From: Spirochaetota bacterium
GTDB taxonomy: Bacteria; Spirochaetota; JAAYUW01; JAOAHJ01
Direction of reading: 5' to 3'
DNA: 50,152 bases
Assembly: GCA_026415295.1 (NCBI GenBank)
Contig: JAOAHJ010000028.1
Location: 66,964 to 117,115, forward strand
Below the pieces are notes generated by a model. That model did not search any database, was not told the origin of the DNA, and worked only from the letters and a program-made list of their open reading frames with translations. Of this stretch, positions 44,394 through 49,002 are shown piece by piece. The translations under genes and the position numbers were made by a program. Position 1 is the stretch's first letter; every line of letters begins with the position of its first letter.

Positions 44394-45221
44394 ATGAAAA
44401 ATTCTAAAGTTATATTAATAACTGGTGCGTCTTCAGGAATAGGCGAAGCTTGTGCTGTATACTTGAGCAAAAAAGGGCATAAAGTATATGGGACATCAAG
44501 AAAAGTTAAAGCTACCATTAATAAAGAAAACTATAAACTTTTAAAATTAGATGTTACCAATAATGAAACAATTAAAACATGTATTGAAGAAGTTATTATG
44601 AAAGAAGGTAAAATTGATGTTCTTGTTAACAATGCTGGATTAATGCTTGGTGGTCCAATAGAATCAGCAAGTCCAGAAGAAATAGAATTAATTTTTAAAA
44701 CAAATATATTAGGTCAAATAAATTTAATAAAAGAAATATTGCCTTATATGAGAAAAGAAGGTAAAGGTTTAATTATTAATATAGGTTCTATAGGAAGTAT
44801 ATTTGGATTACCATTTCAAGGATTATATTCATCAACCAAATTTGCCTTATACGGATTAACTCAAGCTTTATCTTTAGAAGTTGAAAACTTTGGTATCAAA
44901 GTTACAATAATAAATCCAGGTGATACTAAAACCAATGTTATTAAAAATAGAATGTTTCCAAATAATCCTTCTGTTGATATTTATTATCAAGATCAATTTG
45001 AAAAAACAAAAGAAATAATTGAAAAAGAAGAAAAAAATGGAATGGACCCTTACAAAATAGCTAAATTTATAGCTAAATTAATAAATAAAAAAACAATTAA
45101 GAATAGTTATATAATTGCAAAACCATCTCAAAAATTGGCATGTATACTTTATAAATTATTGGGTTTTGATCTTTTTAAATTTATTCTTAAAATATTTTAC
45201 AAAATAAACAATAAAAAATAA
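44394..45221 (+). CDS. short-chain dehydrogenase/reductase
   Basis: The 275-residue SDR has the cofactor motif TGASSGIG (10-17), NNAG (79-82) and the catalytic Ser132 (IGS), Tyr145 and Lys149 (YSSTK). TSRK after the second strand (34-37) suggests NADP use. INPGDTKTNV follows as usual. The C-terminal 40 residues are hydrophobic (KLACILYKLLGFDLFKFIL), a possible membrane attachment. The substrate, possibly a lipid or steroid-like ketone, is not determined. It precedes the phosphofructokinase gene by 16 bases and is likely co-transcribed. The 238-base leader shows nothing distinct. Confidence 0.88.
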   Translation: MKNSKVILITGASSGIGEACAVYLSKKGHKVYGTSRKVKATINKENYKLLKLDVTNNETIKTCIEEVIMKEGKIDVLVNNAGLMLGGPIESASPEEIELIFKTNILGQINLIKEILPYMRKEGKGLIINIGSIGSIFGLPFQGLYSSTKFALYGLTQALSLEVENFGIKVTIINPGDTKTNVIKNRMFPNNPSVDIYYQDQFEKTKEIIEKEEKNGMDPYKIAKFIAKLINKKTIKNSYIIAKPSQKLACILYKLLGFDLFKFILKIFYKINNKK

Positions 45222-45237
45222 TTAATAAGGAAAGATT

Positions 45238-46260
45238 ATGAAAATAGGCATTTTAACTTCAGGTGGAGATTCTCCTGGTATAAACGCTTTTATTAGAGCT
45301 CTATATTATATTCTGGAAAAAAATAATATTGAATTATATGGTATTTATAAAGGATACACTGGTTTAATAAATAACGAAATAAAAAAGTTAACAAGAGTTA
45401 ATGTTGAAAATATTACAAATTTTGGGGGAACAATTCTTAAAACTTCAAAATATAACCCTCTAAATGATCCAGAAGATATACAAAAAATTATCAACAACTA
45501 CAGAAATAATAATTTTGATTTTATAATTATATGTGGTGACTTTGATACTTTAAGGATCGCAAAAGAACTTCACAAAAAAGGTCTTAATATTTTTGGAGTT
45601 CCTCAGACCATCGATAATGATATACCTGAAACTGATTATACTTTAGGTTTTTTTTCAGCAATAAGAAACATTGTAAACTCAATTGAAATAATTAGATCAA
45701 CAAATGAATCTCATGAAAGAGATATTCTTGTAGAAATTATGGGCAAAGATAGTGGTTGGCTAACTGTTTTTTCAGCTCTATCAGTTAAAGTAGAGGGTTT
45801 TTTTATACCTGAAAGAGAAGCATCTTTAGAAAAAATAGCAGAGGTCTTTATTAATAGAAGAAAAAACGGCTCTAATGATAATATCGTTTTAATAGCTGAA
45901 GGAGTTCAAATTGAAAATATTTCTAAAAAAGTTGATCCAAATTTAATTTATCCAACTATTGATAGATCCGGAATAGTTATGGTAATTGCTGAAAAACTTG
46001 AAGCATATTTAAAAGAGAAACCAAAAGCAGTTATTCTTTCTTATATTCAAAGAGGAGGAAATCCTGATATTTTTGATATAATTTTAGCTTCAAGGTTCGC
46101 AGAAAAAATATATAATTTAATCCAAAATAATATTTGTGGTGTTTATGTTACTATAAAAGATAATGAACTTAGTTATTCTCCCCTTGATGTTTTAAATAAT
46201 AAAATTAAACATGTTTCTGATTACTATATAGACCTTGCATATAAAATGGTAAATAATTAA
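45238..46260 (+). CDS. pfkA: 6-phosphofructokinase family protein with altered phosphoryl-donor motif
   Basis: The 340-residue protein has the PFK fold: TSGGDSPGINAF (8-19), PQTIDNDI (122-129) with catalytic Asp126, STNESHERD (154-162, fructose-6-phosphate Arg), MGKDSGW (168-174) and YIQRGGNP near 274-281. All sugar-phosphate residues look intact. The donor motif, GGDGS in ATP enzymes and GGDDS in PPi enzymes, reads CGDFD (99-103), and TSKYNP replaces the SARFPE-type Arg. It may use a different donor, be a low-activity paralogue, or a regulatory protein. Overlap with SDR context gives no clue. The ATG follows AAGGAAAG. Confidence 0.8.
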   Translation: MKIGILTSGGDSPGINAFIRALYYILEKNNIELYGIYKGYTGLINNEIKKLTRVNVENITNFGGTILKTSKYNPLNDPEDIQKIINNYRNNNFDFIIICGDFDTLRIAKELHKKGLNIFGVPQTIDNDIPETDYTLGFFSAIRNIVNSIEIIRSTNESHERDILVEIMGKDSGWLTVFSALSVKVEGFFIPEREASLEKIAEVFINRRKNGSNDNIVLIAEGVQIENISKKVDPNLIYPTIDRSGIVMVIAEKLEAYLKEKPKAVILSYIQRGGNPDIFDIILASRFAEKIYNLIQNNICGVYVTIKDNELSYSPLDVLNNKIKHVSDYYIDLAYKMVNN

Positions 46261-46680: not shown

Positions 46681-49002
46681 TTAATTTATATATAAAAGAT
46701 CATAATAAGTAGGAATAGGCCATCTATCTTTTTCAGTTCTTTCCTCTAATTTATCAACAATATTTCTTAAATTATCCATCATATTTCTTATTTTTGAATT
46801 GCAAATTGAAGCTTTTTCTTCTAAATTTTCTTTAGTTTTTAATAAATCCATTTCTTTTTCTAATTCTTCTAGAGAATATAATAAATTATCAACCAAATTT
46901 TTATATTCTAAAAAATAATTAAATTGTATCTCATAGTTTATTTTATTATTAACAGATTTATCCCCTTCTTTTAATTTTAATATCAAACTAAAATCTTCTA
47001 ATTTTTGAAGTTTATCAATTACATCAAATAGATCTTTTTGATATTTAAAAGAAACAGGAAGTATTTTAGTCTTTATCATATGGATCATTGTTTCAGCTTC
47101 TAATTCAACACTTTTAATAAACCTCTCCATTTTAATATTATACCTTGCATCTATCTCTCTTTCTGTTAAAACATTTGTTTTAATCAGGAGATCTTTATTT
47201 TTGGGATATAAAAAAGCTTTTAGTGCATCTGGTGTATTATCTACAACAAAAAGCTTTCTTCTTTTAGCTTCCTCCTTCCATTCTGGAGAATAATTATCTC
47301 CTTCAAATAAAATATCCTTAGACTCTCTTAAGCCTTCTATTATTATTTCCATTATTGTTTCATTAAATTTTATATTTTCTTTTTCAATAAGAAATTCATT
47401 TCCGTTTCCTATATGTTTAGTAAAATCTATATCTTTTTTGCCTAATTTACTTTCTATCTTTTGACCAAACTCTTCTAAAACTTTTGAAACTGCAGCATTT
47501 AATATAAAATTTGGAGTTGCTACTGATTGACTGGAACCAACAGCTCTAAATTCAAATTTATTTCCAGTAAATGCAAAAGGGGAAGTTCTATTTCTATCTG
47601 TATTATCCTTACTTATTATAGGTATCTTAGAAATCCCAAGATCTATAATATCTTTTGAAGTAAAATCAAATCTTTTGCTATAAACCAAACATTCTACTAT
47701 AGAAGATAATTTCTGACCAAGAAAAATAGAAATTATAGAAGGTGGAGCTTCATTTCCTCCAAGTCTATAATCATTTGATGCAGTTGATATTGATGCCCTC
47801 AATAAATCATTATATCTATAAACAGCAACAATAACTGATGTCAGAAATAATAAAAACTTCAAATTTTGATGAGGTGTTTCTCCTGGATCAAAAAGATTAT
47901 TTCCTTTATTGTCTGAAAGAGACCAGTTATTATGTTTTCCAGAACCATTTAAACCTTTAAAAGGCTTCTCATGAAGTAAAACAATTAAATTATTCCTAAT
48001 TGCTATTTTTTTCAAAATCTCCATTATTAATTGATTATGATCACTTGCAATATTAACATCTTCAAAAATTGGAGCAATTTCAAATTGAGCTGGTGAAACC
48101 TCATTGTGTCTTGTTTTTGCAGGTATGCCTAATTTATAAAGTTCAAATTCAACTTCTTGCATAAAATTTAGAATTCTTTCCTTAATGCTTCCAAAATAGT
48201 GATCTTCCAATTGTTGTCCTTTAGGAGGATTTTTACCAAAAAGTGTCCTTCCCGTAAAAACAAGATCCTCTCTATTGTAATAAAAATCTTTGTCTACTAA
48301 AAAATATTCTTGCTCAATACCAACAACTGGATACACCCTTGATGGATTTTCATTAAAATAATTAAGAATTTTACACGCTGACTTTGATAAACTCTCCATG
48401 GATCTTAAAAGAGGTGTTTTCTTATCAAGAGAATCTCCGTTATAAGATAAAAAAATCGAAGGTATACAAAGTGTTCCACCTTTTTCATTTTCCATAATAA
48501 ACATTGGAGAGGATGTATCCCATATAGTATAACCTCTAGCTTCAAAAGTTGATCTTATTCCTCCAGATGGAAAGCTTGAAGCATCAGGCTCACTTTTTAT
48601 AAGATTTTTTCCAGAAAATCTGTTAATAGGTGTACCATCTCTTTCTATATTTAAGAAACTTTCATGTTTTTCAGCAGTTAAACCTGTCATTGGTTGAAAC
48701 CAATGTGCAAAATGGGTAACACCTCTACTTATTGCCCATTCTTTAACTCCGTGTGCAATTTCATCAGCTAATATTTCATCAACTTTTTCACCCTTTTTAA
48801 TTATTTCTTTAAATCTTTTATATGCATTATATGGTAAAAATTTTCTCATTTTTTCATCATTAAATACATTATACTGGTATATATCTATTATATTGTATCC
48901 TTTATTATCGTTAATTTTGAATAATCTATCTTTCCCCTCATTAATTACAAAATCATCTTTTTTCTGAATAAAATATTCATTATCAAAATTTCTATTTTTC
49001 AT
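46681..49002 (-). CDS. glnN: glutamine synthetase, type III
   Basis: The 773-residue enzyme makes glutamine from glutamate, ammonia and ATP. It is the type III form: FAHWFQPMTGLTAEKHESF begins at 98, GIEQEYFLVD holds metal glutamates, RHNEVSPAQFEIAPIFE and GLNGSGKHNNWSL follow, then DYRLGGNEAPPSIISIFLG and NRTSPFAFTGNKFEFRAVGS. It is somewhat longer than the common 690-730 residues. The adjacent ATP and ammonium-site patterns are all intact. The C-terminal 130 residues form a helical bundle typical of the type. ATG 49002 has AAGGAG six bases away. It ends 30 bases after the unknown gene on the same strand, without a regulatory PII gene nearby. Confidence 0.95.
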   Translation of the reverse strand: MKNRNFDNEYFIQKKDDFVINEGKDRLFKINDNKGYNIIDIYQYNVFNDEKMRKFLPYNAYKRFKEIIKKGEKVDEILADEIAHGVKEWAISRGVTHFAHWFQPMTGLTAEKHESFLNIERDGTPINRFSGKNLIKSEPDASSFPSGGIRSTFEARGYTIWDTSSPMFIMENEKGGTLCIPSIFLSYNGDSLDKKTPLLRSMESLSKSACKILNYFNENPSRVYPVVGIEQEYFLVDKDFYYNREDLVFTGRTLFGKNPPKGQQLEDHYFGSIKERILNFMQEVEFELYKLGIPAKTRHNEVSPAQFEIAPIFEDVNIASDHNQLIMEILKKIAIRNNLIVLLHEKPFKGLNGSGKHNNWSLSDNKGNNLFDPGETPHQNLKFLLFLTSVIVAVYRYNDLLRASISTASNDYRLGGNEAPPSIISIFLGQKLSSIVECLVYSKRFDFTSKDIIDLGISKIPIISKDNTDRNRTSPFAFTGNKFEFRAVGSSQSVATPNFILNAAVSKVLEEFGQKIESKLGKKDIDFTKHIGNGNEFLIEKENIKFNETIMEIIIEGLRESKDILFEGDNYSPEWKEEAKRRKLFVVDNTPDALKAFLYPKNKDLLIKTNVLTEREIDARYNIKMERFIKSVELEAETMIHMIKTKILPVSFKYQKDLFDVIDKLQKLEDFSLILKLKEGDKSVNNKINYEIQFNYFLEYKNLVDNLLYSLEELEKEMDLLKTKENLEEKASICNSKIRNMMDNLRNIVDKLEERTEKDRWPIPTYYDLLYIN

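Follow-up and report, generated by a model that had tools for sequence, protein, structure and literature searches.

One gene in the window (by which we mean the whole stretch of 50,152 nucleotides that was analysed) raises the question of what a phosphofructokinase (PFK) does once its phosphoryl-donor motif has been rewritten: does it still draw on ATP, does it use another donor, or has it taken on another role? We describe the gene and the register of its donor loop, the distribution of the variant, and the active-site columns in which it departs from its relatives, and then weigh the possible functions.

A PFK-A protein and the register of its donor loop

The product of the gene (Table 1; hereafter the query) is a genuine member of the PFK-A superfamily, matching Pfam PFK (PF00365) with 282 bits against a cut-off of 30.9 (E 6.5e-84). 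The two-domain PFK fold is predicted for it with confidence: the AlphaFold2 model has a mean pLDDT of 91 and a pTM of 0.89, with pLDDT below 50 at residues 234-243 only, and the 50 best PDB matches listed by Foldseek are all PFKs, Bacillus and Staphylococcus enzymes coming at the top (TM 0.88). In NCBIfam, the query passes the curated cut-off of the subfamily model NF002872, labelled “ATP-dependent 6-phosphofructokinase” (301 against 253 bits), as does the orthologue L005 (279 bits), while it does not reach the cut-offs of the ATP-PFK equivalog TIGR02482 (255.8 against 371.35 bits) or of TIGR02483, “PFK_mixed” (281 against 431 bits).

Table 1. Features of the window at and around the PFK-A gene. 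Query residues are set beside their Bacillus PFK positions where these are given.
Feature	Coordinates	Strand	Remarks
Short-chain dehydrogenase	44394..45221	+	16 bp upstream of PFK
Purine-rich stretch AAGGAAAG	45227..45234	+	likely ribosome-binding site, judging from its sequence; a little 5' of the ATG
PFK-A paralogue, 340 aa	45238..46260	+	one of three PFK-family genes in the genome
Lys71 at Arg72	45448..45450	+	K in 4/4 clade members; R 36, N 4, K 1 in the 41 others
Donor loop G100-D101-F102-D103-T104	45535..45549	+	Bacillus PFK G101-G102-D103-G104-S105; orthologues G-S-F-D-T
Ile107 at Gly108	45556..45558	+	bulkier than Gly, a trait of PPi- and ADP-dependent types (PMC12203962, PMC11609450)
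Gln123 at position 124	45604..45606	+	Q in 4/4 clade members, 0/41 others
T-I-D-N-D	45607..45621	+	retains Thr125, Asp127 (the catalytic base) and Asp129, by alignment
Arg161 at Arg162	45718..45720	+	sugar-phosphate contact, kept, by alignment
Lys263 at Arg243	46024..46026	+	K in 4/4 clade members; R in 41/41 others
S268-Y269-I-Q-R272	46039..46053	+	Ser for Gly248, Tyr for His249; Arg252 retained
DUF2905 protein, 80 aa	46304..46546	+	43 bp downstream of PFK
Type III glutamine synthetase	46681-49002	-	downstream, in convergent orientation to the PFK and DUF2905 genes

A first-pass annotation of this DNA had equated the letters CGDFD with the ATP-type motif GGDGS and had placed Phe at the position that decides between ATP and PPi. 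The letters are indeed present at 45532-45546; their equation with GGDGS is off by one residue. phmmer aligns residues 2-223 of the query with residues 3-224 of the Bacillus PFK chain without a gap, MAFFT gives the same columns at the donor loop, and the first glycine of the motif (query G100, not Cys99) is invariant in 45/45 rows, so that G101-G102-D103-G104-S105 of the Bacillus enzyme corresponds to G100-D101-F102-D103-T104 of the query. We rejected the placement of Cys99 as the first motif glycine, which would require indels that cancel out on either side and would give up the invariant residue. In Bacillus PFK numbering, used below for all alignment positions, the residue at the deciding position, 104, is the Asp of PPi types, and it is Asp103 that Phe replaces. 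The predicted secondary structure gave no sign of an altered loop backbone, a strand at 95-100 and a helix at 102-113 being found both in the query model and in that of a GGDGS control (the Sporolactobacillus protein L036).

Distribution, ancestry and genomic setting

The order to which the genome belongs was sampled by four genomes, the window's own and three from another family, and all four contain an orthologue; the three other orthologues, 46-49% identical to the query, read G-S-F-D-T at the donor loop. Scanning 392 genomes of the phylum with a DNA pattern that joins F-D-T to P-x-T-I-D-N-D, set the correct distance apart, gave matches in the four genomes of this order (in the window at 45541) and in none of the 388 others sampled; with its fixed spacing, such a pattern finds the exact motif only. 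A looser pattern, whose validation covered the window and the retrieved orthologues, gave no match in 121 and 120 genomes around Chloroflexi and methanogen loci, nor in four single genomes outside the phylum, all of them sampled regardless of PFK content. The sequencing error at the motif against which the first-pass annotation had cautioned is not borne out, as the variant recurs in each genome of the order. Taken together, the sequences indicate that it is neither chance nor error, and identify a conserved PFK-A variant that is so far confined to one bacterial order.

The proteins that carry the variant form a fully supported clade in the family tree, the outcome for which that annotation had proposed to look, with support of 100 in a tree of all columns and 100/100 in a tree built without the donor and C-terminal active-site columns. 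In the latter tree the stem of the clade is the longest internal branch (2.45 changes per column) and the clade joins L008, which has GGDDT / PKTMDND (support 92/89); in the all-column tree with outgroups, from which L056, L057, L058 and L062 were omitted, it joins sequences with ATP-type motifs (SH-aLRT 90). Both trees gave long-branch warnings and the amino-acid composition of the query was flagged as unlike the rest, and the position of the clade among PFKs is, on these sequences, unsure. NG86 estimates of dN/dS are 0.05-0.14 among the three close orthologues, which is rough at a dS of 1.3-2.0, and 0.31-0.47 between the query and these orthologues, where dS is saturated.

Searching the window's genome for a canonical PFK, as had also been suggested, revealed two further PFK-family genes, one of 449 aa with GGDGT (NF005301, 662 against 400 bits) and one of 411 aa with GGDDT, for which the nearest model is one of PPi-PFK (365 bits against a cut-off of 550). 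The three related genomes encode a GGDGT / PKTIDND PFK (L060, L062, L063) and a GGDDT / PKTMDLD PFK (L056-L058), and both kinds of paralogue are thus present in 4/4 genomes of the order. The GGDDT proteins apparently belong to different subtypes, with PKTIDND in the window's genome (L003/L061) as against PKTMDLD in the relatives, and the PPi-type gene may therefore have been exchanged within the order.

The neighbours of the orthologue in the three related genomes differ from those in the window. There the PFK gene and a phosphate butyryltransferase-like gene point away from each other (the latter typed for L052, at 323 bits against a cut-off of 410, and assigned by eye in the two others). A membrane pyrophosphatase gene lies on the other side of the PFK in G001 and G003 with one gene between, which encodes a LUD-domain protein (typed for L052 only). 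In G002 a LUD-like gene is present beside the PFK and the pyrophosphatase is absent from this position, being on another contig, and in the window's genome it is likewise on another contig than the PFK. Membrane pyrophosphatase genes and transaldolase-family genes are each found in all four genomes. Since the window's neighbourhood differs from those of its relatives, gene order says little in favour of any function. As a separate observation, the dehydrogenase upstream of the PFK gene scores 283 bits with its nearest NCBIfam model, 3-ketodihydrosphingosine reductase, short of the cut-off of 400, which raises the question of a role in bacterial sphingolipid metabolism.

Active-site columns and donor classes

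Residues were counted column by column in the four clade orthologues and in 41 relatives. The relatives are the best matches that yielded loci, and so a sample and not the whole family; they come partly from a contig scan seeded by short peptide patterns, by which some relatives may have been missed. The query's own duplicates (L001, L004), incomplete sequences (L039, L050) and matches weaker than E 1e-30 (L002, L003, L051 and the second L017 protein) were omitted beforehand.

At position 102 the clade has Asp or Ser (motif G-[DS]-F-D-T), where all 41 relatives have Gly. Position 103, at which Asp contacts Mg2+, is Phe in every clade member and Asn (18), Asp (14), Glu (6) or Gly (3) in the relatives, and position 104 is Asp throughout the clade and Gly (36) or Asp (5) outside it, the five relatives with Asp104 having Asp or Glu at 103. 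Loss of Asp103 alone is no proof of inactivity because 27/41 relatives have Asn, Glu or Gly there, and the argument that a PFK without Asp103 must be dead is weakened by this count. E. coli PFK has reportedly been the subject of mutagenesis by Hellinga and Evans (1987) and by Berger and Evans (1992). The third motif residue in fact varies much more than one would expect from the textbook GGDGS: GGNGT (Asn103) occurs in 18/41 relatives, and L031, L032 and L048 have GGGGT, with Gly at 103. Four of the proteins with GGNGT and PKTIDND (L034, L035, L037, L042) are encoded by PFK-A genes in Methanoregula or Methanoregulaceae records, i.e. in methanogens.

The differences continue beyond the loop. 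Position 108 is Ile, or Val in one orthologue, in the clade and Thr (14), Gly (10), Ala (8), Ile (5), Val (2) or Asn (2) in the relatives; position 124, usually Gly in ATP types and Lys in PPi types, is Lys in 31 relatives, Gly in 9 and Ala in 1. Position 248 is Ser in 4/4 clade members and Gly in 41/41 relatives, and position 249 is Tyr in the clade and His (28) or Tyr (13) in the relatives. We take Gly11, Arg72, Met169, Arg171, Glu222, Arg243 and Arg252 to be functional PFK residues. All four clade members retain Gly11, Thr125, Asp127, Asp129, Arg162, Met169, Glu222 and Arg252; Arg171 is kept in three of them, the query alone having Lys (Lys170), and is Arg (23) or His (18) in the relatives. 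Two claims of the first-pass annotation bear on these columns. It had reported Lys in place of a nearby Arg, which holds at Arg72 for the entire clade, and it had described the sugar-phosphate and catalytic residues as intact, which is right in so far as PQTIDND, ESHER, MGKDSGW and IQRGGNP are all found in the translated frame, but does not extend to Arg243 and Gly248, replaced by Lys and Ser in 4/4.

Of 31 columns that are invariant in the 41 relatives, three (G102, R243 and G248) are altered in all clade members and 28 are kept. The same test altered no invariant column in any of nine other groups (2-7 rows each), and of the ten remaining single rows seven altered none, one altered one and two altered two. 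With a looser cut (95% conserved, 49 columns), nine columns are altered in all clade members, several of them outside the listed active-site positions. The strictest columns thus point to the active site, and the divergence, as far as these alignments indicate, extends beyond it.

How such columns relate to donor choice is described in PMC12203962: Asp104 of PPi enzymes takes up the place of the ATP alpha-phosphate and blocks ATP binding, PPi is held by Lys124, and adenine is kept out by a side chain at 108 that is bulkier than that of Gly. PPi enzymes may also have Tyr at 249 (PMC10339645). The clade resembles PPi-dependent PFK-A (GGDD, PKTIDxD) in having Asp104 and a bulky residue at 108 (I/V) in 4/4 members, and Tyr249, but differs from it in Phe for the acid at 103, in the absence of Gly102 and in Gln, again in 4/4, for the Lys124 of PKTIDxD. 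ADP-dependent PFKs retain Gly104 in the account of PMC11609450, and the cyanobacterial ADP-PFK-A described there shares Ile108 with the clade (Val in one orthologue) but not Asp104. Bacterial ATP-PFK (PfkA of Bacillus stearothermophilus and E. coli) is like the query in fold (TM 0.88), TIDND, R162, E222 and R252, and unlike the clade in reading GGDGS and not G-[DS]-F-D-T, with the further changes R72K, Q124, I/V108, R243K and G248S; where the ATP-dependent signature GGDG has Gly104, all four clade members have Asp.

Among the sequences compared, Phe103 together with an acid at 104 was otherwise met only in eukaryotic PFK. In the regulatory halves of 3o8o_A and 3opy_B (3opy being, we assume, a yeast PFK structure), GGFEG and GGFEA align to the clade's loop, so that both of the two examined have Phe103 and an acid at 104, and Arg stands in the Arg162 column. 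Unlike the query, these C-terminal halves have TVSNN or TISNN for TIDND, with both Asp residues gone, and Gln for Arg252, and are fused to a catalytic half, where the query is a stand-alone unit of 340 aa. Kinship with the regulatory half is unsupported by the domain scores of the query, which are 108.7 bits (regulatory half) against 42.6 + 84.5 (catalytic half) for 3o8o_A and 87.7 against 44.0 + 88.1 bits for 3opy_B; as they show no special relationship, the resemblance would at most be a convergent one, at two positions. PMC12203962 states that in the C-terminal half of yeast and mammalian PFK the ATP pocket is wholly lost and the sugar pocket has become a fructose 2,6-bisphosphate site.

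Regulator or enzyme

Automatic annotation would label the query an ordinary ATP enzyme, which it probably is not. The first-pass annotation had proposed an altered donor or a regulatory paralogue, and in breadth this proposal fits the evidence, because the ATP-type signatures are gone and GGDGT and GGDDT paralogues are encoded in the same genome; the reason that it gave is wrong in detail. Asp104 and the bulky residue at 108 argue against ATP, and with Lys124, Gly102 and the acid at 103 all missing, an ordinary PPi site would be missing too. The loss of donor contacts, combined with the parallel to the regulatory halves at Phe103 and acid 104, leads us to favour a sugar-phosphate binder in which donor use is lost or nearly so. 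We give somewhat less than an even chance to the reading that the clade comprises PFK-A paralogues without ATP use that serve as sugar-phosphate-binding regulators or partner subunits, and a regulatory sugar-phosphate binder appears more likely than an ordinary kinase.

In such a protein the donor pocket would be closed or much weakened by Phe103, the lack of Gly102, Asp104, Ile/Val108, a residue at 124 that is neither Gly nor Lys, and Lys72. Its main ligand would be a sugar phosphate, whether fructose 6-phosphate, fructose 1,6-bisphosphate or something closely related, and the protein would act as a regulator or partner subunit, like the duplicated C-terminal half of eukaryotic PFK without its ATP pocket; residual catalysis may persist. 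The aligned orthologues speak for this, in that the donor loop and neighbouring contacts are rewritten alike in all four and most sugar-side and catalytic residues are retained. Its fullest form, in which the active site of a free-standing bacterial PFK would independently have become an effector site for a sugar phosphate through the eukaryote-like Phe103 and acid 104, and the protein would control the cell's other PFKs or another partner, is a speculation that we regard as rather unlikely. The strongest point against a regulatory role is that Asp127 and Asp129, lost in the regulatory halves, are kept here: in a dead enzyme Thr125, Asp127 and Asp129 ought to drift, and all three are retained in 4/4 members. 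Positions 103 and 72 also vary among the relatives, and the secondary structure of the loop is like that of the GGDGS control.

Retention of the two Asp residues, the catalytic base among them, brings an active PPi-like enzyme to nearly equal standing. The protein would then be a phosphotransferase using PPi or another small phosphate donor and derived from a PPi-type PFK, a substantial possibility even if we doubt it on balance. Asp104 and the residue larger than Gly at 108 are PPi features in all four members (PMC12203962), and Tyr249 is seen also in PPi enzymes (PMC10339645), but Gln has taken the place of the PPi-holding Lys124, Gly102 is lost, Lys replaces Arg72, and Phe103 stands where the five relatives with Asp104 have Asp or Glu. 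The tree without active-site columns puts the clade beside the GGDDT / PKTMDND protein L008, with long branches flagged, a placement that is unstable given the union with ATP-type motifs in the all-column tree. Membrane pyrophosphatase genes occur in every genome of the order and close to the PFK in G001 and G003, yet on another contig in G002 and in the window's genome, and each genome already has a GGDDT paralogue.

The other readings carry far less weight. That the protein is an active PFK using ATP or another nucleotide and tolerating an odd donor loop would accord with the NF002872 scores of the query and L005, and with the Asn, Glu and Gly tolerated at 103 in relatives; we consider it improbable in view of Ile/Val108, the missed TIGR02482 cut-off and Asp104, which occupies the alpha-phosphate site in known PPi enzymes (PMC12203962). 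There is similarly little probability that the chemistry is the same and the sugar another one, the protein being a kinase for a different phosphorylated sugar or having a bisphosphate-directed activity. The 6-phosphate side is altered in 4/4 members (R243K, G248S, Y249), and sedoheptulose 7-phosphate is also a substrate of certain PPi-PFKs altered at 162 and 249 (PMC10339645), but the donor-site changes would be left unexplained. A sedoheptulose kinase replacing transaldolase was rejected, the usual reason for such an enzyme being weaker where transaldolase-family genes are present in all four genomes. A decaying gene or an error is very unlikely: the longest internal branch leads to the clade, Lys170 and Asp101 are found in the query alone and its dN/dS against the orthologues is 0.31-0.47 (with dS saturated), but decay is contradicted by the orthologues, with an open frame and the same motif in 4/4 genomes, low if rough dN/dS among the close orthologues, and 28 of the 31 family-invariant columns kept.

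A literature search of open-licence PMC papers found no paper on a bacterial PFK variant of this kind and no characterised homologue with the same motif. If the protein is a sugar-phosphate-binding regulator, bacteria would have arrived independently, by a second route, at the device that makes eukaryotic PFK-1 controllable; an active enzyme would call for a third class in the donor rules based on GGDG/GGDD and PGTID/PKTID. In both cases, a passing NCBIfam label of “ATP-dependent 6-phosphofructokinase” can mask a protein without an ATP-type site, a point of consequence for metabolic models that are derived from genomes.
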